DNA of 37,893 nt from Nitrospirota bacterium (GCA_029261155.1 JAJDBW010000032.1:1-37893); one strand, 5' to 3'; positions 13,083 to 35,470 are shown, numbered from the stretch's first letter. Numbers and translations are program-made. The notes: generated by a model from the letters alone, not told the origin.

Positions 13083-14150
13083 CTAAACCAGACCGAGGCG
13101 TCTTTTACCTTGTTCGGGTTTGACGTGGGCGTAGGCCGCGCGGGGCCGGCCATTTTTATGGTGGATGAAGGAATACTTTTTCGAGGCAAGGTGGATTTTC
13201 GCCATCTCTGCGGGTTTAAGCCAGGGCAGGAGCCTTTCGTTTTCTTTATTTTGACTGGTCCCCGAAACCGTGGTGTTGTCGGTACAGATTGAAACCGGAA
13301 TGCCATATTCCAAAAAGGTGAGAATGGGATGCGGATCGCCTATCCTGACCGCGCCGGTCTGGTAGTTTGAGGTCGGGCAGCATTCAATCATCACCTTGTC
13401 CCGCGCCAACCTTTTCAATAAAGCCTTGTCCTGAATCGCAGAACAGCCGTGGCCGATGCGCGTGACGCCGAGGATGTCAATGGCCTCCCATATGGCTTGC
13501 GGGCCTTCGTCTTCTCCCGCATGGATGGTGAGGTGGAGTCCGCCGCGCCGCGCGATTTCGTAGCTTTCCCCAAAGAGCCGTGCCGGGTTCCCCCGTTCTG
13601 CCCCCGCGATATCGAAGCCGATAACGCCGGTGCGATCGTGGAGCGATTGCGCTTCGGAGATGGCCTGCCGCGCCAATATTTTTGCGATGTGCGGGCCTTG
13701 ATGCCGCATGGCGATTACGATCAATCCCACCTCCATCGTTGGATACTTATCCTTGGCCTTGTTGATGCCGGTGAGCACCGAGCTGATGGCTTGCCGAAGC
13801 GTCAAGCCCGCGAAGGTGTGGATGATGGGTGCATAGCGGAGTTCTAGAAGCCGCACATTATTTTCGTAGGCCTCATCGACGATGGTCTCGACCACATGCG
13901 AGATGTTGCCGTAAAACTGGGTGATCCATTGCGGGTAGTGAAACTTATCGAGATACTTCAGTAGGGCACCCTCTTCTCCCGCTTGCAGGACCAACAGTTT
14001 TTCCATTTCTCTTTTCGTTGCGACCGGATTGAGGCCGTGTTTGCGCATGAGCTTCCAAGTGACATCGACGGGGATGGAGCCATCGACATGCTGGTGGAGT
14101 TCCACTTTTTCGATTTGGGCGATTTCCTTATTTTTGCCTTGGGTCTTCAT
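13083..14150 (-). CDS. add: Adenosine deaminase family protein
   Basis: A 355-residue metal-dependent hydrolase that converts adenosine (or a related aminopurine nucleoside) to inosine. Zinc ligands are visible: His19 and His21 (ELHQHVDGS), His210 in IHAGED, and Asp291 in ICTDN. Glu213 and His234 (RIGHG) complete the active site, and CPTSN is present. HQHVDG replaces the usual HxHLDG, a mild change. The start at MKTQGKNK (14150) overlaps the pyrD-like stop by 4 bases (ATGA), so it is the second gene of a nucleotide-metabolism operon. The substrate could be another adenine derivative. Confidence 0.92.
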   Translation of the reverse strand: MKTQGKNKEIAQIEKVELHQHVDGSIPVDVTWKLMRKHGLNPVATKREMEKLLVLQAGEEGALLKYLDKFHYPQWITQFYGNISHVVETIVDEAYENNVRLLELRYAPIIHTFAGLTLRQAISSVLTGINKAKDKYPTMEVGLIVIAMRHQGPHIAKILARQAISEAQSLHDRTGVIGFDIAGAERGNPARLFGESYEIARRGGLHLTIHAGEDEGPQAIWEAIDILGVTRIGHGCSAIQDKALLKRLARDKVMIECCPTSNYQTGAVRIGDPHPILTFLEYGIPVSICTDNTTVSGTSQNKENERLLPWLKPAEMAKIHLASKKYSFIHHKNGRPRAAYAHVKPEQGKRRLGLV

Positions 14151-15223
14151 GCGCCTTCCTGCCCTTCCTTCCAGAATCGATAGGCCAGCAGCGGATCCCA
14201 CATCGCACCCGTTGCGCTCATGACGGCATCGACGCCCAGGGAAAAATAGTCTCGAATATCTTGGGGGCTCATTGCGCCACCGACACCCACCACCACAAAA
14301 TCGTAACCGCCCATCTGCCGAATTTTTATAAGGCGAGAAGCCTGACTCATGGCGCAGTTTTTAATGGCGGCCCCGCAGACACCCGATCGCAGTCGTCCCT
14401 CGCCGGGGAGCGCGGGCGAACCATCCGGCGCGACCACTTCAAAGGGGAGGGTGTTCACAGAGGCCACGCCTTCGATGTGTGGGGCGTTGGCCAAGATGAC
14501 TTGTGTGAGGCGCGACGGGTCCGAGATGTAGCCCATTTTAATTAAAAGCGGTGTTTCGCCGATGGCTCTCTTTACTTTCGCCGAGATCCGCGAGGAGGCA
14601 TTGGGATCGGTGAAGAGGCTGCCTTCTCCGCTAATCACATTGGGGCACGACAAATTGATTTCGACAATTTCGGCACCGGCCTCCACCGCCATGCGCGCGC
14701 CCAGGGCATAGTCTTCCGCTAAATCTACGCCTTCGCCGGGTGTGCCGACCACACTCACAATCAGCACCTGTCCTTCGCCCATTCCGGCTTTGGCCTTTTC
14801 TACATCCGCCTGCCATTCCTTTGGATCGCGCGAGGGCATGCCAAAGGAGTTGGTGATGCTAATGTCTCCGGTCCAATCCGCTCCGGCATTGGGGGCCACT
14901 TTGAGTTGTCCGCCGATTTCCTTTTCTTTAATTGCCTCTTGTAAATCGAGAATCATGCAATTGGGCGCGGGATGGCTGGGTGCAAAATGGGTGCGCACGG
15001 TTTTGTACACCGGCAAATCAAAACCCAGGGCCGCATAGGTCAAGACCCAATTGGCATTGAGCAAGGGACCCGCCGGGATGCCGAGGCGGGAGTTAACCTC
15101 AAAACCTAAAAAGTTTTCTCGCCGGGTGATTTTACGTTTCGGGATCTCGTCCTTGAAAAAAGGACCTTGTTTATAGTTGTCTTCGTAGGAGAGATCGATG
15201 CGATATGTGGGCTGGGAAGGCAT
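14147..15223 (-). CDS. pyrD: Dihydroorotate dehydrogenase-like flavoprotein
   Basis: A 358-residue FMN TIM-barrel enzyme. Family segments include LGIPAGPLLNANWVLTYAALGF, VEINLSCPNV, LLIKMGYISDP and VVVGVGGAMSPQDIRDYFSLG. The reaction would be oxidation of dihydroorotate to orotate in pyrimidine synthesis. A dihydropyrimidine dehydrogenase-like role is possible because the N-terminal 60 residues (YKQGPFFKDEIPKRKITRR) differ from classical PyrD. It is the first gene of the pair with the adenosine deaminase. The start has only a poor ribosome-binding site. Confidence 0.85.
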   Translation of the reverse strand: MPSQPTYRIDLSYEDNYKQGPFFKDEIPKRKITRRENFLGFEVNSRLGIPAGPLLNANWVLTYAALGFDLPVYKTVRTHFAPSHPAPNCMILDLQEAIKEKEIGGQLKVAPNAGADWTGDISITNSFGMPSRDPKEWQADVEKAKAGMGEGQVLIVSVVGTPGEGVDLAEDYALGARMAVEAGAEIVEINLSCPNVISGEGSLFTDPNASSRISAKVKRAIGETPLLIKMGYISDPSRLTQVILANAPHIEGVASVNTLPFEVVAPDGSPALPGEGRLRSGVCGAAIKNCAMSQASRLIKIRQMGGYDFVVVGVGGAMSPQDIRDYFSLGVDAVMSATGAMWDPLLAYRFWKEGQEGA

Positions 15224-15321
15224 TAATAAAAGTGTATAACAAGCAAGGGTTTAGGTCAAGGACTCGCGTGTTTCTAAGCCCTGTTGCTGTAAGAATAGGG
15301 CGATTTTTCCTTCATTTCATC

Positions 15322-15783
15322 TCAAACCCGGAGCAAGAGCATCATTAGGATGAGGCCGCTGGTCACGAGGGCGACAATGGAAACGACCAGGTCTTGGTCG
15401 AAATTGGGCCGCTGTGTCCATTCGGAGGGATAGAGCTGTTCCTTGGGCAGGTAGCGGCCTTCCTCGAAAAATCCGAAACCGCGTTCCAGGCGAATCAGTT
15501 GAAGCTTGGCTTTTTCGTGGCGTGATTTTTCCTGGATCAATTGAAAGATCAACAAGAGCATGGCCAGGGCGACGCTGCCCGCACAAAGGAATTTGAAGAT
15601 CGGAGGGGAAGGACTATTTTCAGGAATAAATAGGCTCAGGATTGAAAGCGTCGTAAATGCAAAAATGCCGCGTCGGCTCATTTGGGCCATCGCCGCTCGG
15701 CGGCGATAGACCTCTTCCTTAAAAATGGGATACAGCAAGCGGAGGGTTTCGAGGGACTCGGTGTTGGGCGGGTGTTCACTCAT
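15322..15783 (-). CDS. Three-helix membrane protein coupled to an ATPase gene
   Basis: A 153-residue protein starting at MSEHPPNTESLETLRLLYP. The N-terminal 35 residues are soluble and charged (KEEVYRRRAAMAQMSRR). Hydrophobic helices lie at about 40-53, 62-84 and 133-152. Between the second and third is a charged cytoplasmic segment (QEKSRHEKAKLQLIRLERGFGFFEEGRYL). I do not recognise the family. Its ATG overlaps the stop of the upstream ATPase by 4 bases, so the two are translated together and probably act together. The longer frame through the ATPase gene has no support. Confidence 0.78.
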   Translation of the reverse strand: MSEHPPNTESLETLRLLYPIFKEEVYRRRAAMAQMSRRGIFAFTTLSILSLFIPENSPSPPIFKFLCAGSVALAMLLLIFQLIQEKSRHEKAKLQLIRLERGFGFFEEGRYLPKEQLYPSEWTQRPNFDQDLVVSIVALVTSGLILMMLLLRV

Positions 15784-16712
15784 CCGCTCACCTTGGGTAT
15801 AAAAAGCGGGGAGGCCCTGCGGACCACGGCTGTGCCGTGATCCAAGGTCCTCACCACCATGCCCGCCATGCATAAGCGGTCGAGAAGGCGTTTCGCCGGA
15901 CGGTGACCCTCTCCGTCTTTCAGGCGGTCTAAAATCATCCAGTCGCCCTTCGGATTGATCTGTTCCAATAAGCCCTCTTCTTCGGGGGACAGTTCCGCGT
16001 ACATGCGCTTGACGAGATTGTCTGTTTTCAGTTCAGTTTTTTTTGCAAAGGCTTGTTCCATTAAGTAGGGGTGGCCGCCCGTCTCGTTCCAAACCCGCTC
16101 TACCGCGTCCGGTCCCAGATGCTCCAAGATAATTTTTCGGGCCTCCCGGATAGGGACGACAGAAAGGGGATAGAAGCGGAGGGGAAGGATAAATGCCGCC
16201 CTGTGGGCTTCGGCCCAGGCGTCCCAGTTTAGACCGCCTATCCAGCAGATCGAATGAATGGCGGGCGTGGTAAGCTCCATGGCCATGTTGACGATTTGTG
16301 GAACTAAATTTTGCGATTGCTGGAGAAATCGCTCGCAACCGTCGATCAGCAGGACGATTTTTTTTGACCGTTGTTGCGGAGCCGTTTTTTCGGCGATGTG
16401 ATGAATCTGCGACATGAACTCGGAGAGCGAGCCCGGATTTTTTCGATAAGGATTTTTGGCGTCCCAGTCCATGCCCTCGCGAATGAGGGCCTCGAAGGTA
16501 AGGGACCAGAATCCGGCATCCGAATCGGCATCCTTCAGAGAAATCAGAATGGCCTGGTGTTGATCATCGCTAAGCCCTTCGGCCAGGTGCGCGGCCAAGG
16601 TGCTCTTGCCGATCATCGGGCCGCCGGACATTACAGCCCACTTGCCCTTCAGGAGGTGTTTGCGTAGATTTTCAATCAGCCCAAGACGGCTGGTAAAAGG
16701 CACATTCGACAT
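15780..16712 (-). CDS. AAA/STAND-like P-loop ATPase with C-terminal winged-helix-like region
   Basis: A 310-residue protein beginning VPFTSRLGLIENLRKHLLKG, the usual entry to AAA_16/Orc-Cdc6-like NTPases. Walker A is GGPMIGKST (residues 30-38) and Walker B is VLLIDGCERF, with Asp124. After the NTPase core comes ETGGHPYLMEQAF, a motif of the STAND/archaeal-ATPase helical lid. The end (ILDRLKDGEGHRPAKRLLDRLCMAGMVVR, then LFIPKVSG) resembles a winged helix. Proteins of this type switch on nucleotide binding and control partner proteins. The overlapping gene codes for a membrane protein, so a sensor-effector pair is plausible. This is inference; no known system is recognised. Confidence 0.82.
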   Translation of the reverse strand: MSNVPFTSRLGLIENLRKHLLKGKWAVMSGGPMIGKSTLAAHLAEGLSDDQHQAILISLKDADSDAGFWSLTFEALIREGMDWDAKNPYRKNPGSLSEFMSQIHHIAEKTAPQQRSKKIVLLIDGCERFLQQSQNLVPQIVNMAMELTTPAIHSICWIGGLNWDAWAEAHRAAFILPLRFYPLSVVPIREARKIILEHLGPDAVERVWNETGGHPYLMEQAFAKKTELKTDNLVKRMYAELSPEEEGLLEQINPKGDWMILDRLKDGEGHRPAKRLLDRLCMAGMVVRTLDHGTAVVRRASPLFIPKVSG

Positions 16713-16849
16713 GGCGAAACCTTAACATAGAAAATGGGTGGCGACAACGGGAAAGGCATGTCAATTCAACGACGATATTTTGGATTTAAATCGTTAAGGA
16801 GCCGTGGAAGTTCTGGCCGACTAGAGATTTATTAGGAGTACGTTAAGTT

Positions 16850-17134
16850 CTAGGCTGCGACGGGGTTAATTTTCTTATAATCGACTTCATTCAATTGGCT
16901 GAGTTCCCAATTGTTTTGCAGATTGAGCCAGAACTGAGGGCTTCCGCCCAGCGCCTTCGATAGTTTCATCGCCATATCCGCGCTGATACCCCGCTTTCCG
17001 CGACATATTTCATTAATCGTTTTTGCCAACACGCCGATGTGTTTGGCTAGGCGGCTCTGGGACAGTTCAATTTCCTCCAGCTCGTCTTGCAGGACTTTGC
17101 CCGGATGGATGGGGGTAATATGCAATTTACTCAT
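16850..17134 (-). CDS. higA: HigA antitoxin
   Basis: A 94-residue XRE-type helix-turn-helix antitoxin of the HigA/VapI family. It reads IHPGKVLQDELEEIELSQSRLAKHIGV, then NEICRGKRGISADMAMKLSKALG and PQFWLNLQNNWELS, all typical. It binds HigB and represses its own operon. The start at 17134 has GGAGGAATCG immediately upstream. It follows higB by 19 bases in the toxin-first order characteristic of this family. A decayed fragment of a second higA lies at 19276-19350. Confidence 0.95.
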   Translation of the reverse strand: MSKLHITPIHPGKVLQDELEEIELSQSRLAKHIGVLAKTINEICRGKRGISADMAMKLSKALGGSPQFWLNLQNNWELSQLNEVDYKKINPVAA

Positions 17135-17153
17135 CGATTCCTCCTTGTGTCGG

Positions 17154-17450
17154 CTAATGGTAATCGACAATTTCGACATCAAAGGCCATTTCTTTCTGCC
17201 AGGTGAAACATATCCGATTTTGGTCGTTTATACGAATACTATATTGTCCTTTTCGATTGCCCTTCAATATTTCGAAGCGATTTCCACGAAGTTCACGAAG
17301 ATCCTGAACAGAAGTCGCTGCACCAAGTCGTGCCAACTTGATTTGGGCTTTTGGGTGCAGCTCTTTGGGCAAAGTTCTTAGGGCCTCTTTTGAAACCTTT
17401 CCATCATTAATGTCTTCACTGCCCCGATTTTTAAAACCTCTGATGCCCAT
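17154..17450 (-). CDS. higB: HigB mRNA interferase toxin
   Basis: A 98-residue RelE-fold toxin that cleaves mRNA on the ribosome. The sequence is close to the family pattern along its whole length: FKNRGSEDINDGK, AQIKLARLGAATSVQDLR, GNRFEILKGNRKGQYSIRI, and RICFTWQKE, ending VEIVDYH. It appears intact. It has its own promoter at 17475-17503 and is followed by higA, so the module should be functional. Confidence 0.95.
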   Translation of the reverse strand: MGIRGFKNRGSEDINDGKVSKEALRTLPKELHPKAQIKLARLGAATSVQDLRELRGNRFEILKGNRKGQYSIRINDQNRICFTWQKEMAFDVEIVDYH

Positions 17451-18017: not shown

Positions 18018-19118
18018 ATGAAAACGAAACCGACGGTCTTTATTTCTCACGCATCTGAGGACGAGCATCTTGGCCGGGCTTGGATGGAGCTCATCCAGTC
18101 CATTCCCGGAAAGGCGGAAGTGCCTTATCTCGCCGAGGATATGCGGCGGGGGATCGGCTCTGGAGAGAAGTGGGCGGAGAATATCGATCAGGCGCTCAGC
18201 GATGCAGAGGTGACCATTGCCATTTTAACCCCCAGTTCCAACAACCGCCCTTGGATCTTGTGGGAATCTGGCGTGGCCTATGGCCGTGACAAAGTTTTTG
18301 TGCCCATCTCCTGTTATCTCGATAAGGATAAAATCAATCCCATCTTCCAACGCTTTCAAGCGCGCAATGTCACTACGAAAGAAGCGGCGGGCGAATTGTG
18401 TAAAGAGCTGTTTTTCCCCAATGAGCAACTTTCCGATTTTCAGCAGACCGTGTTCGACGCGGCGCTTCAACAATATGAGGATATGGTCAGCAAGCACAAG
18501 GTCATTGCTCAAACACACGGCTTGTTTAACGACCATTTTCATAATCACGACCGTGCGAAAAAACTCGATGGTTATTGGCTGGCAGACTGGGATTTTTACG
18601 ATGAAAAGGGCAAATTAAAAGCCTATGAAAGAGACGAACTCTGTATTTGGACAACCGACGATCGCCTGCGGGCGGTGGGCTACAATACCAAAACGGGGAT
18701 CGACCGGCTGGGCGAAATCGCAAAGTTTTATCCGATTGAAGGCGTGGTTTCGTCGAGCGGATGGATTGCCTTATCCTTTTGGAGCGCGGCGGAAATCCAG
18801 TATTGCGGCGCGATTTTGCTCCAAGACGATGGCACGGGTCTTTGTTTTAAGGGGACTTGGGAAGGATACAGTACGCAAGAATTCGGTATTGAAGCCAGCT
18901 TAAAAAAAGGAAAAGTGACTTTAAAAAAGATATTGAAGGCGGATATTAACCCCGCTTTGGATTTCATGAATCAAGAAAACAGATCGGTCACCTGCGCGGA
19001 GTTGGCGTCTGCGATTAGCAAGAACGAAGAAATCACCCTGCGTATCCTCAATCATTTAACGATCATCAACAAGGTTCAAAAGCGCGGTGAGAGTGAATGG
19101 GTAATCGGTAGTGATTAA
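18018..19118 (+). CDS. TIR-domain protein with beta-rich middle and winged-helix-like C-terminus
   Basis: A 366-residue protein. Residues 1-130 form a TIR domain: TVFISHASEDEHLG, then EVTIAILTPSSNNRPWILWESG. Glu83 sits at the position of the catalytic Glu of NAD-cleaving TIR domains. Residues about 190-305 form a beta-rich region with repeated GYW/GTW turns (LDGYWLADWDFYDEKGKL, FKGTWEGYSTQE), resembling a calycin-like barrel that might bind a ligand. Residues about 322-366 (TCAELASAISKNEEITLRILNHL) resemble a winged helix. AGGAG precedes the ATG. It stands alone, without Thoeris or other known TIR partners. A role as an immune NADase is an inference from family knowledge. Confidence 0.82.
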   Translation: MKTKPTVFISHASEDEHLGRAWMELIQSIPGKAEVPYLAEDMRRGIGSGEKWAENIDQALSDAEVTIAILTPSSNNRPWILWESGVAYGRDKVFVPISCYLDKDKINPIFQRFQARNVTTKEAAGELCKELFFPNEQLSDFQQTVFDAALQQYEDMVSKHKVIAQTHGLFNDHFHNHDRAKKLDGYWLADWDFYDEKGKLKAYERDELCIWTTDDRLRAVGYNTKTGIDRLGEIAKFYPIEGVVSSSGWIALSFWSAAEIQYCGAILLQDDGTGLCFKGTWEGYSTQEFGIEASLKKGKVTLKKILKADINPALDFMNQENRSVTCAELASAISKNEEITLRILNHLTIINKVQKRGESEWVIGSD

Positions 19119-20354: not shown

Positions 20355-21281
20355 CTAAGGCGCTTTAGCAAAAAATAAATCTTCTGCTGAAACGACTCCT
20401 TCCTTTAAATATGCCGACATGACGATTTCCGTGAGCTCTGTCGAAAAAGCGAATTCGTATTTTAGATCGAGCACATAGGCCTTGAGGCGCATTTTAAGCC
20501 AGGAGCGGCCTTCGTGGATTTCGTTCTTTAGGACGATGGCGATGGGTTTATTCAAATACACATAGCGCGACACCGCAGCGGCACGATGGGCGATCTTTTT
20601 CGCCTTGATTAAGTCGACATGGGGCGGTAGATAAAACTCCGTGGCCACTTGGCAATTGTTTTCACCGGCATTGGCGTTGGAGACGGAGGTGCTCACAATT
20701 TCGCTGTTCGGGATGGACACCAAGCTGTCGTCGGGCGTCACAATGCGAACGGTGCGCAGACCAATGTGCGTGACCTCGCCGTAATATTTTCCCACCTCGA
20801 CCTTGTCGCCAATTTGGAAAGGGCGGTCAAAAAGAATAATGATTCCGCCAAAGATGTTTTTAAGGATGTCCTGCGAGGCGAAGCCCACGGCGATACCGGC
20901 GGAGGCCGTGAGGGCGACCAAGGTTTGGATCGGCGGCGCGAGCACTTCGGCGACGATGAAGTAGATGACGAGGGTCCAGCCCGCCACGCGCAAGACCGGG
21001 ATACTTCGCTTGATAAAAAGGCGAAAATAGATCCAGTGTTCGGCGACGACTTCAAGGAGTTTCGCGAGGTAGGTGATCGCGATCCACCCGATAATAAAAA
21101 CGACTAAGGACCAGCCGACCTTTCCCATGGAAAGCGACCAGGCCTTCGCTGCGCCCTGAACGGCGTCGGAGGCAAGCGCCTCGGCATTTTGGCCCCAGGC
21201 CATTTGTTCAACGCCAAAAAACAAGGCCCAGAAACCCAGCGCAAGAAAGGTAGATTGTTTTATAAGGTCTTTTATTTTCAA
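20355..21281 (-). CDS. MscS-family channel, coupled to the large coiled-coil ATPase
   Basis: A 308-residue small-conductance mechanosensitive channel homologue. After a signal-like first hydrophobic segment (FLALGFWALFFGVEQMAWG) come helices at about 55-75 and 95-115. The pore-lining helix follows (LVALTASAGIAVGFASQDIL) and then the beta domain (GGIIILFDRPFQIGDKVEV, RTVRIVTPDDSLVSIPNSEI). The C-terminal alpha-beta domain is present. Its ATG overlaps the stop of the upstream 986-residue ATPase by 4 bases, so the channel is translated from the same message. That pairing suggests the ATPase controls channel opening or assembly; this is inference. A second, separate MscS homologue lies at 33703-34611. 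Confidence 0.92.
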   Translation of the reverse strand: MKIKDLIKQSTFLALGFWALFFGVEQMAWGQNAEALASDAVQGAAKAWSLSMGKVGWSLVVFIIGWIAITYLAKLLEVVAEHWIYFRLFIKRSIPVLRVAGWTLVIYFIVAEVLAPPIQTLVALTASAGIAVGFASQDILKNIFGGIIILFDRPFQIGDKVEVGKYYGEVTHIGLRTVRIVTPDDSLVSIPNSEIVSTSVSNANAGENNCQVATEFYLPPHVDLIKAKKIAHRAAAVSRYVYLNKPIAIVLKNEIHEGRSWLKMRLKAYVLDLKYEFAFSTELTEIVMSAYLKEGVVSAEDLFFAKAP

Positions 21282-24238
21282 TGGAGGATGTTCCTCATTT
21301 TAAGGGCATGCACAATGGGCCGGTAAAGAATGGGGTTAATTTGAAAATAGGCATCCGTCTTACGCACTACTATGCCTTTTTTCTCCATTCGGCCCAGGAG
21401 GATTAGGCTCTTTTGTTTCTCAAACCGGAAAATCGCGAGGTGCTCTTCGACATTCAGGCCTTCATGGTGGAGCAGGGCAGCGAGTGTGAAGAGTTCGTCG
21501 TTTGCTATGCGAAAGAGACTTGAGGGGTCCATCTTTATTTCGGGCGAAAGGGTTAAGGTGTGATCTTCTATCTTTTGAATAGCCGCCAGCCAAAAGTGCA
21601 GCGCGACGGAGATGTTTCCGTCGGCCAAGGTGGCGAGGCGATTAAAAAAAGCGCTTTTGAGTGTGTCTTGAAGATCGTCACCTTTAGTCTCTTTTTTTGA
21701 GTTAGAATCCTTTGCGGCTGCATCAAAGACGAGTCCGTATCCGCTGACGCGGTGGCGTTTTAATATAATGGTTTCGATTTCCTCACGGCTTAATCGATCT
21801 AAAAAATGAGGGGGTTCAAAAAACGTTGCGATATTGAGGGTTTTATCGAGATAGCGCCAGCTATAGAGCGTGCAGGTGTTCAGCCAATAAATGGTGTCGC
21901 AGGTCCGAGACATAAAAAGGAGAAAGCGTTCTAGCGCTTCAAAACCATCGACCGTTCGTAGAAACAGGTTTTGGATGTCTTCGACGCAAACGATTTTCCT
22001 TTCTTTCCCGGATAAGATCTGTTCTTCGAGATCGTAAAGCGTGGCGGCCTCTGGCATTTTCAAGCCCTCGCCGAGTGCCTGGAGCAGGGCGTCTTCGGAA
22101 ACGGGGCGCTGCATGTGCAGGCTGATTTTTAAAAAAGGGACTTGGTGGTAGAGTTTGGGTACCGCGGCGTTGATGAGGCTTGTGCGGCCGCTCCCTTTTT
22201 CCCCCACAATCATGGTCATGCCCGCCTCACCGTTTCTCCAAGCCTCAAAGCTCGTCTTTAGCGCGGCCAAATGTGTTTGCTGTCCTTCGAAAAATCGCGA
22301 GTCGGCTAGGGCTTCGACACGAAAAAGACGTTGATACACATAGGGGAGTTCTGCAAATTTTTTCCGGGTTTCGAGCACGAACCGGGACAGGCTTTCCTCC
22401 CCCGTAGTGCTTGTGCTGGGCAGCCCGGCGAATCCCCTCGCCCTTGCGTAGAGTGCCTTGAGCTTGTCCCATTGTTTTGTGGCGAGGCTGCGCGCGGAGG
22501 AAAGGGTTTCTTCACTTTGGTCTAAAAGTTTCTCTTGGTAGCTACGCGCCTGTTCTACGGTTTTAGCTTTGGCCAGCCGAACCTTGAGTTCCAAAATCTT
22601 TTCGTTTTGACCCAAGGCTCTAATTTGGTCTTGAAAGGATGCGAATCCGCTTTCGCGGTTTTCCTCGATGATCCTTGCGATCGCCCGGCTTCGCACCATG
22701 AGTGTTTCTAGTTGCCTTAGCGCGCGTTCCAAACCCTCAATGATTTCATTTCGAACCGGCTCCGCGTTTTGAAGGGCTTCGTCACTCGCGAGCAGGTCGA
22801 GGCCCGATTCCAGGTTATATTCAACCAAAGCGTCGAATTCCGACACGTTCTGATCGATGAGACTGAGCTCGGCCTCCACCTGTGTAAGCAAGGCCCGATG
22901 TGCGGTCTCCAGTTCTTGGCAGGCTTCTTCCTGGACCAAGGTCTTAAGATGAATCTCCGAGACCTTTGGGTTTGGCACCGGGGTATCCCAATCCGCTTTC
23001 ACGAGAAGCCAGTGAGTTTCCGATAGTTTTTCGACGGCGTGGAGAATCCTTGAATGACAATTTTCTAGGTTTTTCAGCAAGGGCCCCTGATCGAGAAGCG
23101 CGGAAATTTGAGGGAGGACTTCCCGCCGAAGGCTGCGCAACATGGAGCGGCTTTCAGAAAGGATCATCGATTTTAATTGGGCGTTTCCAGCGTCTCCCGC
23201 TTCCGATTCATTGAACTTTTTTAATGAGCGCGTGATCAGATCGCTGGCTTCCTGAAATTTTGGTGCGAGGACTTTTTCAATTTTTGCCTGAATGGCCTGT
23301 TTCGATTCCATATGGGCCTGCCGAACACGCACCAGCAGTAAGGCCAGTTCCAGATCCTTTCTCCAATCGTCCTGCTCGGCTTCGAAGTGCCGATGCCAAC
23401 CCTCTTTAAGTTTTTTGGCCTCTGCCTCTAGGCGAAGCCGATGGGCTTCAAAATCAGAAAGTCCTTCTTTTTTCTCAATCGGGTCTGTCTGGTTTTCCTT
23501 GGCGACCTCGATGAGGAGCTGTTGTGCTTCCTCAAGGGCCTTTCGGCAATCCGCTTCAAAGGCGTCTAGGGCCTCTTTTTCAATGCGATCCAGTTGAGCC
23601 ACATGTTTGTCTATCGCCGGGCTGGCGGTTTGAAGGATTTCGATGGCGGATGGCTTTTCGTCGCCTGCATCGGATTTCCCCGCATCCAGTGAAGATTCAA
23701 TCCAGTCTTCACCCTCGCGATGCAGTTGATGAAAAATTTTCGCTGTGCCAGGCAAAAGGTGAGTGCTTAACTTGAGGAAGGCTTCCGATATGGGCGCTTC
23801 CAGATGAAGACGAAGGAAGGCTTCGATCTCTTCTTCCGCGCCATTTTTCGACTCATTTTCGGGATGTTTATCCGTCGGATTGGGATCGACATTTTTTCTA
23901 CAGACTGAGCGGATTTGATCATCAATCTCATTTTGATATTGCCTGATCCGATCGTTTGCTGGGATATCCTGAACTGTTGAATAAAAGGATTGAAGCCAGT
24001 CGATCTGTTTCTGAATGACGTCTTCCAAAAGAGTAGGGTGCTGCTCTAGGCGGGGATTGGCCTTTGCGAGGGCATCGCATGTTTTTAAAAAATGGCGATG
24101 AATCGACGAGAGGTTTTGGAGGGACTCCTTCAGCCCTTTCTTCCAGTCCGACAGAAATGCCTGACCCTGGGAAAGGTGAATGGACGCGCATTGCTTAAGG
24201 CCTTGTTCAATGATTTCGTGTTTCATCGTGGTGATCAT
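21278..24238 (-). CDS. Large coiled-coil P-loop ATPase (AAA/STAND-like)
   Basis: A 986-residue protein. Residues about 1-620 are almost all charged helix with heptad character (for example KALEEAQQLLIEVAKENQ and RQLETLMVRSRAIARIIEEN), with no membrane segment. A short linker leads to FRVEALADSRFFEGQQTHLA and a P-loop, IVGEKGSGRTSLINA (near residue 676). Walker B is KIVCVEDIQNLFL (near 750). A helical lid and a winged-helix-like end follow (RMEKKGIVVRKTDAYFQINP). Proteins with this C-terminal layout act as nucleotide switches; the long N-terminal rod may sense or scaffold. The start at 24238 has no clear ribosome-binding site, and ATG 24226 is an alternative. I know no named family for the whole protein. 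Confidence 0.85.
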   Translation of the reverse strand: MITTMKHEIIEQGLKQCASIHLSQGQAFLSDWKKGLKESLQNLSSIHRHFLKTCDALAKANPRLEQHPTLLEDVIQKQIDWLQSFYSTVQDIPANDRIRQYQNEIDDQIRSVCRKNVDPNPTDKHPENESKNGAEEEIEAFLRLHLEAPISEAFLKLSTHLLPGTAKIFHQLHREGEDWIESSLDAGKSDAGDEKPSAIEILQTASPAIDKHVAQLDRIEKEALDAFEADCRKALEEAQQLLIEVAKENQTDPIEKKEGLSDFEAHRLRLEAEAKKLKEGWHRHFEAEQDDWRKDLELALLLVRVRQAHMESKQAIQAKIEKVLAPKFQEASDLITRSLKKFNESEAGDAGNAQLKSMILSESRSMLRSLRREVLPQISALLDQGPLLKNLENCHSRILHAVEKLSETHWLLVKADWDTPVPNPKVSEIHLKTLVQEEACQELETAHRALLTQVEAELSLIDQNVSEFDALVEYNLESGLDLLASDEALQNAEPVRNEIIEGLERALRQLETLMVRSRAIARIIEENRESGFASFQDQIRALGQNEKILELKVRLAKAKTVEQARSYQEKLLDQSEETLSSARSLATKQWDKLKALYARARGFAGLPSTSTTGEESLSRFVLETRKKFAELPYVYQRLFRVEALADSRFFEGQQTHLAALKTSFEAWRNGEAGMTMIVGEKGSGRTSLINAAVPKLYHQVPFLKISLHMQRPVSEDALLQALGEGLKMPEAATLYDLEEQILSGKERKIVCVEDIQNLFLRTVDGFEALERFLLFMSRTCDTIYWLNTCTLYSWRYLDKTLNIATFFEPPHFLDRLSREEIETIILKRHRVSGYGLVFDAAAKDSNSKKETKGDDLQDTLKSAFFNRLATLADGNISVALHFWLAAIQKIEDHTLTLSPEIKMDPSSLFRIANDELFTLAALLHHEGLNVEEHLAIFRFEKQKSLILLGRMEKKGIVVRKTDAYFQINPILYRPIVHALKMRNILH

Positions 24239-33702: not shown

Positions 33703-34611
33703 TTATTGAGGCTTTTTAGAGGCCTTCCCTTCTTCGACGCGATGGACCAGCAGTTTTTCGACTGCGGGTGTTAATTGCAAGTGCATGTCGAGTTGTGGAA
33801 AGGGGATGGCGAGGCCGTGTTCGCGAAAGGCGGCTGCAATGGCAAAATTCATTTCACTGCGTAAGGTTTTTTGATTTTCGGGGTTGGCGGTCCAGACCAA
33901 TAAATCAAAATTCAAAGACGAATCGCCAAATTCTAAAAATCGGACATCCGGTCCAGGCTGCTCCAAGACTTTAGGGTTTTGCCGGGCGATGGCGATTAAG
34001 ACCTCACGCACCTTCTTTTCGTCGGAGCCATAGGCCACGCCCACCGGACAATGAATCCTGATTTTGGGATCGCCCACCGTCCAATTAATAATTTCCCCTT
34101 CGATGAATTTTGTATTGGGCAGGATAATCGTTACATTATCGAAGGTCCGCACCGTCGTCGAACGTAAATTAATACTCACCACTTCCGCCGTGCGCTCATC
34201 GACGGTGACATAATCGCCCACGCCAATGGGCCGCTCGACTAAGAGGATGATGCCCGAGATAAAATTGGAGGTTAGGTTTTGGAGTCCAAAGCCGATGCCG
34301 ACGCCTAAAAAACCAAAGATCAGGGTCAAACTACTGAGCTTCAGCCCCATCGATTCGGAGGCGATAATAACGCCAAGAATAATGAAGACATAGTTGATGA
34401 TTCGGTTGAAGGCGTAGATGACCGATTTAGAGAGTTGTTCTTTTTTCGAAAGCTGCCGGTAAACAAGCCGCTGTATAAACTTCGAAAACAGCAGGGAAAG
34501 GATAATAATTAAAATCGCGGTGCCGATGCCGCCCAAAGTGATGGCCGTTCCGCCGATGTGCAAAAGCGGCATATTAACCCAATCAATAATCTTGTTCCCG
34601 TCCATGTTCAT
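33703..34611 (-). CDS. MscS-family mechanosensitive channel
   Basis: A 302-residue channel starting MNMDGNKIIDWVN. Transmembrane segments lie at about 17-37, 63-82 and the pore helix FGFLGVGIGFGLQNLTSNFI. The beta domain has LLVERPIGVGDYVTVDERTA and TFDNVTIILPNTKFIEGEII. It is a standard osmotic-shock release channel by family. Unlike the MscS at 20355-21281 it has no ATPase partner; it follows the transglutaminase-like gene by 34 bases in the same direction. Confidence 0.93.
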   Translation of the reverse strand: MNMDGNKIIDWVNMPLLHIGGTAITLGGIGTAILIIILSLLFSKFIQRLVYRQLSKKEQLSKSVIYAFNRIINYVFIILGVIIASESMGLKLSSLTLIFGFLGVGIGFGLQNLTSNFISGIILLVERPIGVGDYVTVDERTAEVVSINLRSTTVRTFDNVTIILPNTKFIEGEIINWTVGDPKIRIHCPVGVAYGSDEKKVREVLIAIARQNPKVLEQPGPDVRFLEFGDSSLNFDLLVWTANPENQKTLRSEMNFAIAAAFREHGLAIPFPQLDMHLQLTPAVEKLLVHRVEEGKASKKPQ

Positions 34612-34645
34612 GTGCCGTGTCGTATCCTTTTTATATGCCGGTGAA

Positions 34646-35470
34646 TCATTCGGGTGAGGGGCTCTTGACCTCATCGGCCGTCACTTTGAAGTGCTTGAGG
34701 GTGTTGAGTCCGAAGGTGGTGCTAATGGGCACATCCGCGGCATCACGCCCGCGCGCAATTAACACTCTGCCGATCCGCGCTTCGTTGTTTCGGGGGTCAA
34801 AAATGTACCATTGTCCGTCAAGGTAGGCCTCGAACCAGGCGGCGAAATCCATGGTGCCGTAGGGCGGTGGAATGCCGATGTCGCTCAGGTAGCCCGTGCA
34901 GTAGCGGGCGGGGATGTTCATGCAGCGGCAAAAGGCGATGGCCAAATGCGTGTAATCCCGGCAGACGCCGTTTCGTTCGTTGAAGGCCTCCCAGGCCGTT
35001 TTCGTGTTGCGGGCGTTTCCGTAATGAAAGGCGATATGGCGATGCACAAAATCGCAGATGGCCTGCACGCGTCCCCATCCTGTGGGCGAATTGCCGAATA
35101 AATTCCAAGCCGCCTGGGAAAGCAGGTCGGTTTCGCAATATCGGCTTCCCATGAGAAACACCAGCGTTTCCTGGGCAAGATTTTGCACGGGGTGCTGTTG
35201 GGCATTTGGGGCCGTCACATCGGGCAGGCCGTTATCGTTAATCAGGGCCTCGGTCGAAAGCCGAATTTCCCCCTTGGGGGCGACGATCCGGCTGCACCAG
35301 TTTCCAAAGCCATCGCGATAGGCCGTGGTCGGAATAGAGGGCTTGGTGATGAGGTGATCGGGAATCACGATATCGGAGACCCGGGTGGAATGGATGTGTA
35401 AAGTGAGAATCATCGGCGTCGGCTGAGGACAATCGTAGATCAATTCGTAACCGACTTTCATTTGTAACAT
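34646..35470 (-). CDS. Transglutaminase-like protein lacking the canonical His
   Basis: A 274-residue cytoplasmic protein of the transglutaminase/cysteine protease fold. Its N-terminal beta domain (MKVGYELIYDCPQPTPMILTL) is typical of the bacterial group. The nucleophile is Cys170 in ERNGVCRDYTHLAIAF, and Asp225 lies in WYIFDPRNN. The segment that normally carries the catalytic His reads MDFAAWFEAYLDGQ, with Ala where many relatives have His. Either another His serves or the reaction differs. AAGGA precedes the first ATG. It is probably co-transcribed with mscS. Confidence 0.87.
   Translation of the reverse strand: MLQMKVGYELIYDCPQPTPMILTLHIHSTRVSDIVIPDHLITKPSIPTTAYRDGFGNWCSRIVAPKGEIRLSTEALINDNGLPDVTAPNAQQHPVQNLAQETLVFLMGSRYCETDLLSQAAWNLFGNSPTGWGRVQAICDFVHRHIAFHYGNARNTKTAWEAFNERNGVCRDYTHLAIAFCRCMNIPARYCTGYLSDIGIPPPYGTMDFAAWFEAYLDGQWYIFDPRNNEARIGRVLIARGRDAADVPISTTFGLNTLKHFKVTADEVKSPSPE

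Follow-up and report, generated by a model that had tools for sequence, protein, structure and literature searches.

Membrane ion transport in the Kef and Ktr/Trk K+ systems is placed under a cytosolic nucleotide-binding subunit or tail. The Escherichia coli channel MscS consists of a three-helix channel, a beta domain and an alpha-beta cage, which is closed by the strands of a C-terminal barrel. Without that barrel (residues 266-286) it opens and inactivates, and cannot be re-activated (PMC4440785); its relative MscK (KefA) opens only when high external K+ is present besides pressure (PMC1890815). Here we describe a gene pair from a 37,893-nucleotide stretch of DNA of a Nitrospirota bacterium (GCA_029261155.1, JAJDBW010000032.1:1-37893; this whole stretch is hereafter the window), in which an MscS-family channel is coupled to a 986-residue protein made of a helical rod and an AAA+ domain (the rod-AAA protein). 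On balance we favor the reading that the pair is one unit for K+/turgor control in which the rod-AAA protein regulates its own channel. Such a unit would share with Kef and Ktr/Trk the scheme of cytosolic control, and its antiporter-type fusions, described below, lie in operons with TrkH/TrkA; it differs from these systems in that the regulator is an AAA+/winged-helix protein with a rod and not an RCK (TrkA_N) or quinone-reductase-like subunit.

Both genes lie on the minus strand. The rod-AAA gene occupies 21278-24238 as a single open reading frame with a recognizable AAA_22 domain, and the gene for the 308-residue channel, with a TTG start, occupies 20355-21281. They overlap by 4 bp, as an earlier note on this DNA had described; within the overlap (TTGA, 21278-21281) the TTG start of the channel gene meets the TGA stop of the rod-AAA gene. 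That note had also proposed a dedicated, translationally linked MscS/AAA pair, and adjacency across genomes had been set beforehand as the test by which this could be refuted. Homologues gathered with the rod-AAA protein sequence only, blind to the channel, gave 83 distinct loci in Nitrospirota, a KSB1-type phylum and Bacteroidota, and these nearly always lie beside MscS: the two genes adjoin in 79 of the 82 loci that could be judged, the independent cases being fewer than 82 owing to near-duplicates (L112/L113, L055/L056, L024/L058, L016/L068 and L017/L019). The pairing holds at all standalone loci (65/65) and at all loci where the rod-AAA part is fused to an antiporter domain (6/6). Where it is fused to an SLC12-type domain, MscS is directly downstream in 8 of 11 evaluable loci (in L124 by a weak match only); the others among the 12 such loci comprise one with a single intervening gene, one at a contig edge and two lacking MscS. 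The stop-to-start distance to a downstream MscS is -4 to +12 nucleotides in most loci, and loci of a deep branch (L118-L120, L125-L130) have MscS first, with the genes still neighbors. As the window's genome, assembled in 90 contigs, has 8 places with an MscS domain, adjacency by chance would be expected at well below 1%. One homologous pair in a Nitrospirota-class genome (L006 and L007 of G019) is split by contig ends and carries one in-frame TAG per gene, a state due to decay or assembly error.

The two proteins also occur together when each is sought on its own. A pair-type MscS profile (E<1e-50, E being the expectation value) picked out nine of 291 Cytophagales genomes, and those nine (G504, G507, G508, G582, G609, G704, G763, G784 and G796) are also the only ones among the 291 to carry a standalone rod-AAA protein; among 98 Nitrospirota genomes the paired channel (E<1e-30) was present in three, the same three as the rod-AAA protein. 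Their distance matrices correlate with r 0.68, the largest value in 2,000 permutations being 0.18, although a correlation of this kind also follows from shared ancestry and is no proof of contact on its own. Taken with the adjacency, we are highly confident that both genes form one functional unit.

The function of that unit is best approached through the versions in which the rod-AAA part is joined to a transporter. In the tree of AAA domains, these form two monophyletic groups. In the SLC12-type clade (12 tips, support 1.0), it lies behind a PF00324 (SLC12/amino-acid-permease) domain with 9-11 transmembrane segments, recognized with E values of 3e-39 to 1e-49 in the seven fusions tested; the SLC12-specific PF03522 was above or near the cut-off in three of the seven. 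In the antiporter-type clade (6 tips, support 0.96), the preceding domain is the Na+/H+ exchanger PF00999 (7e-19 to 4e-21 in three tested; in L121 transmembrane segments occupy that place with no Pfam match). The antiporter-type genes are in turn part of operons in the order antiporter-rod-AAA, MscS, TrkH, TrkA or TrkA, TrkH, antiporter-rod-AAA, MscS, with TrkH matching PF02386 at 2.9e-59, 3.1e-53 and 8.3e-59; the standalone pair of L014 continues into a Na+/H+ exchanger gene. The partners, whether fused or in the operon, all belong to the balance of K+, Na+ and Cl- and to turgor. Since the rod-AAA part is thus fused to SLC12-type and antiporter domains and shares operons with TrkH and TrkA, we consider a role in K+/turgor control quite probable. 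Two further observations concern the antiporter-type loci. A second, broken copy of the pair (a 228-residue rod fragment and an MscS in two pieces) lies at L131:4791-6261, upstream of an intact TrkA-TrkH-antiporter-rod-AAA-MscS operon. A recurrent membrane-protein-like gene of 414-422 residues is found directly upstream of the fusion (L115:10688-11956, L116:10380-11624, L117:11548-12792, L122:2021-3265), its L115 copy, the one tested, being without a Pfam match.

These partners bear directly on the earlier note's suggestion of an infection-triggered leak, that is, a defense system in which the rod-AAA protein would sense infection and, by opening MscS, make the cell leak or die. Defense often employs AAA/STAND-like switches, and the window encodes, 1.2 kilobases beyond the channel gene, a TIR-domain protein (18018-19118, plus strand; PF13676, E 4.2e-10), itself a candidate defense gene with no PADLOC match at 1e-5. 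A TIR-domain gene is nearby in the window only, however, and 90 flanking proteins from 17 loci gave scattered weak or single PADLOC matches with no recurrent defense family; neither protein of the pair matches PADLOC credibly (best E 0.023).

The distribution of the family points in both directions on this question. It is patchy in Nitrospirota (3/270 genomes of the class and 3/396 drawn from the phylum), and the Nitrospirota members, the window's included, nest within a branch of the KSB1-type phylum, which suggests that they were acquired horizontally, from a KSB1-like source, as one might expect of a defense system. In Bacteroidota, by contrast, the family is present in 72 of 395 sampled genomes (about 18%) and follows broad clades. 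Together with the ion transporters among its partners, this makes a defense function very improbable. Elsewhere, the family was found in 7 of 82 genomes of the KSB1-type phylum; a genome-wide scan recovered 11 loci in Nitrospirota, KSB1, Cytophagales and one bin labelled Rickettsiales; 22 of 291 Cytophagales genomes match at a loose threshold, some of these matches being unrelated; and a tblastn search of plasmids returned just two weak matches in Novosphingobium. The matches L041-L047 (E about 1e-4, in frames of 1,350-2,300 residues) were set aside; the four such long frames that were scanned have only the P-loop in common with the family, one of them (L062) being a TPR/AAA protein and the other three Ser/Thr-kinase/AAA_16/GAF proteins.

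In the rod-AAA protein of the window, the sole recognized domain is AAA_22 at residues 671-777 (E 5.5e-07). The first ~640 residues have no sequence match in Pfam, NCBIfam or PDB, and a PDB profile search with the family returned only chance-level secretion ATPases; a match of the rod to a known unrelated family, which the earlier note had named as a second ground for refutation, was therefore not found. An AlphaFold2 model built with 20 homologous sequences (mean predicted local distance difference test score, pLDDT, 78.9) divides the protein into three parts. Residues 1-628 (22355-24238) are the rod, 83% helical, with a longest helix of 87 residues and, at 408-430, a small beta hairpin; no membrane segment is predicted here or elsewhere in the standalone protein. 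The "giant coiled-coil" of the earlier note is helical over this region, but the model points to a long, broken helical arrangement and not to one continuous coiled coil. Residues 629-906 (21521-22354) adopt an AAA+ fold like that of Orc1/Cdc6 (Foldseek/VIA-align: 1fnn Z 15.9, 2qby Z 15.7, 7jgr_G Z 16.1), with further structural matches to TnsC, CED-4 and NSF. The order of elements in the model, and an alignment with 1w5t that runs to residue 986, mark residues 907-986 (21281-21520) as a winged-helix-like domain, at the end of which the family conserves K-x-[RK]-N-[IL]-[LI]-H. The whole C-terminal part (residues 629-986) is thus alike in fold to Orc1/Cdc6, TnsC and STAND-type AAA+ proteins, and is set apart from them by an identity of about 8-16%, degenerate Walker motifs, a long N-terminal rod or transporter domain, and a channel partner.

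Given that Orc1/Cdc6 and TnsC are the best fold matches, the AAA+ and winged-helix domains might be imagined to bind DNA and to couple membrane stress to transcription or replication. The likeness to the initiators, in which winged-helix DNA binding is known, is one of fold only. Winged helices are frequent in AAA+ proteins that do not act on DNA, for instance CED-4, which is among the matches, and two clades carry the module as the tail of a transporter with 9-14 transmembrane segments. We therefore give a DNA-linked regulator hardly any weight, if anything marginally less than a defense system.

The note's "P-loop ATPase" is sound as a description of the fold, but whether it hydrolyzes ATP is a different matter. 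The Walker A motif of the window protein (GEKGSGRTS, residues 679-687; 22178-22204, minus strand) is degenerate, the catalytic Lys being replaced by Arg, and its Walker B-like motif (KIVCVEDIQN, residues 748-757; 21968-21997, minus strand) has Asp at the position of the catalytic Glu, so that neither residue expected of active AAA+ ATPases is present. In the family table the Walker A position is Lys in 48 of 82 members and Arg in 14, the window protein among these, with other residues in the remaining 20, and the Walker B motif reads hhhhE[N/D/G/S], with Asn, Asp, Gly or Ser at the catalytic Glu position in most relatives. By contrast, Arg828, Asn875, Trp883 and Gly765 are conserved in 81-83 of 83 members. 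As the Walker A Lys and the Walker B Glu are so poorly conserved, hydrolysis appears doubtful, and, for many members at least, these alignments favor a switch that binds nucleotide or is a pseudo-enzyme over a motor. This also bears on the possibility that the AAA protein is an NSF- or chaperone-like factor that assembles, positions or removes the channel without gating it. The AAA+ fold with NSF among its structural matches, the long helices, which would fit a scaffold, and the ability of MscS cages to bind FtsZ, among other proteins of the cell (PMC4440785), are all in keeping with such a factor. An unfolding or remodelling motor would nonetheless need the catalytic Lys and Glu, and the transporter fusions suggest a regulation of transport; hence, we regard an assembly, placement or turnover factor as unlikely, if less so than the defense and DNA-linked alternatives.

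The channel itself is a member of the MscS family (PF00924, E 1.7e-23; 82.9 bits against a cut-off of 20.2). Its AlphaFold2 model (pLDDT 87.3) comprises an N-terminal helix, three transmembrane helices forming the predicted pore (TM1-TM3, residues 52-82, 87-114 and 118-152; 20826-21128), a beta domain (20670-20870) and an alpha-beta cage domain with the C-terminus (20355-20654), all on the minus strand. The architecture is that of E. coli MscS (Z about 14), and the nearest solved relative is the C-terminal part of E. coli MscK (E 9.1e-16; Z 15.2), matched at 832-1066 of the 1120-residue MscK chain in 7uw5. MscK, though, is extended at its N-terminus by a large region, and our sources describe no AAA partner for it; its dependence on K+ as well as pressure shows that the earlier note's premise, that MscS channels normally open by tension alone, was too simple. 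Where the paired channel departs from both is in its ending and in its genetic tie to the rod-AAA protein: an IPFP/SFPYP-like C-terminal motif of the barrel strand occurs in none of the 77 complete paired MscS proteins (the fragment L007 being left out), and the model ends in helices (273-293 and 299-302) with no strand after them. Most unpaired MscS proteins in the same loci retain such a motif, as do three of the better-matching MscS of the window's genome, in which IPFP is found at four of the seven other MscS places, C-terminally in three of these. Tension is probably not all that the paired channel responds to. Elsewhere in the window (33703-35470, minus strand) there is a second MscS gene, of the ordinary kind with an IPFP motif, which overlaps the end of a neighboring gene that, judged by eye, looks transglutaminase-like.

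A mechanism can be sketched from these features. The rod-AAA protein would act as a soluble regulatory subunit or, in other clades, as the cytosolic tail of an ion transporter, and may bind to its own MscS-type channel at the cytosolic cage, where the strand with which E. coli MscS closes its cage appears to be lacking. Since the E. coli channel deprived of its barrel cannot be re-activated (PMC4440785), it is plausible that the partner stands in for the barrel's role. Once docked, it might hold the channel shut, license its opening or reset it afterwards. As for the signal, the degenerate AAA+ domain would probably report its ligand state (ATP/ADP or ionic) by way of the helical rod, many members hydrolyzing little ATP or none; in the SLC12-type and antiporter fusions with TrkH/TrkA, ion uptake and release might both be set by one hub. 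That the nearest solved relative, MscK, needs external K+ to open is in keeping with this reading. Docking on the cage and the details of gating are the more tentative part of the proposal, which we would put at somewhat less than an even chance, well below the role in K+/turgor control.

Several points weigh against regulation of the channel by its partner in K+/turgor control. The folded models are of monomers, and contact between the two proteins is something we infer. The standalone pair in the window has no K+ transporter alongside, and in the SLC12-type loci L025 and L059 no MscS follows. With VIA-align, the channel matches E. coli MscS as far as residue 275, and so it is the motif and the predicted secondary structure that speak for a missing barrel strand. 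Moreover, nearly rodless versions (open frames of 440-448 residues in L112, L113 and L114) still stand directly before MscS; as some Bacteroidota keep the pair with frames of 433-448 residues that have mostly lost the rod, the rod would seem dispensable for pairing, with the AAA and winged-helix part as the essential core.

Apart from the pair, the window carries at 13083-17182 (minus strand) a run of genes for a helix-turn-helix protein, an AAA_22 ATPase, a 183-residue protein without a Pfam match, a dihydroorotate-dehydrogenase-like protein and an adenosine deaminase, which by appearance looks like a compact nucleotide-related operon.

The domains of this system are known, but we found no named system that corresponds to the rod-AAA family, to its dedicated type of MscS or to their use together with SLC12-type and antiporter domains. 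In agreement with the earlier note, we found no description of the pair, nor of a function for the family, in the open-access literature, which is weak evidence, as bioRxiv was outside its scope and mention in a subscription journal or preprint is possible. There is perhaps an even chance that we are dealing with a new class of osmotic/K+ hub, in which a degenerate Orc/Cdc6-like AAA+ rod gates or resets its own barrel-less MscS and, fused as well to SLC12-type cotransporters and Na+/H+ antiporters, serves as a single nucleotide-responsive switch for both the uptake and the release of solutes. If this is true, the MscS-type channels of these bacteria would be more than passive safety valves and would belong to a machine that controls ion balance. 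In animals the cell-volume cotransporters are SLC12 proteins, and with SLC12-type domains linked to MscS through one regulatory module, the coordination of ion uptake and release becomes testable. A natural channel without the barrel motif, and with a partner of its own, would likewise offer a direct handle on the role of the MscS cage in gating.

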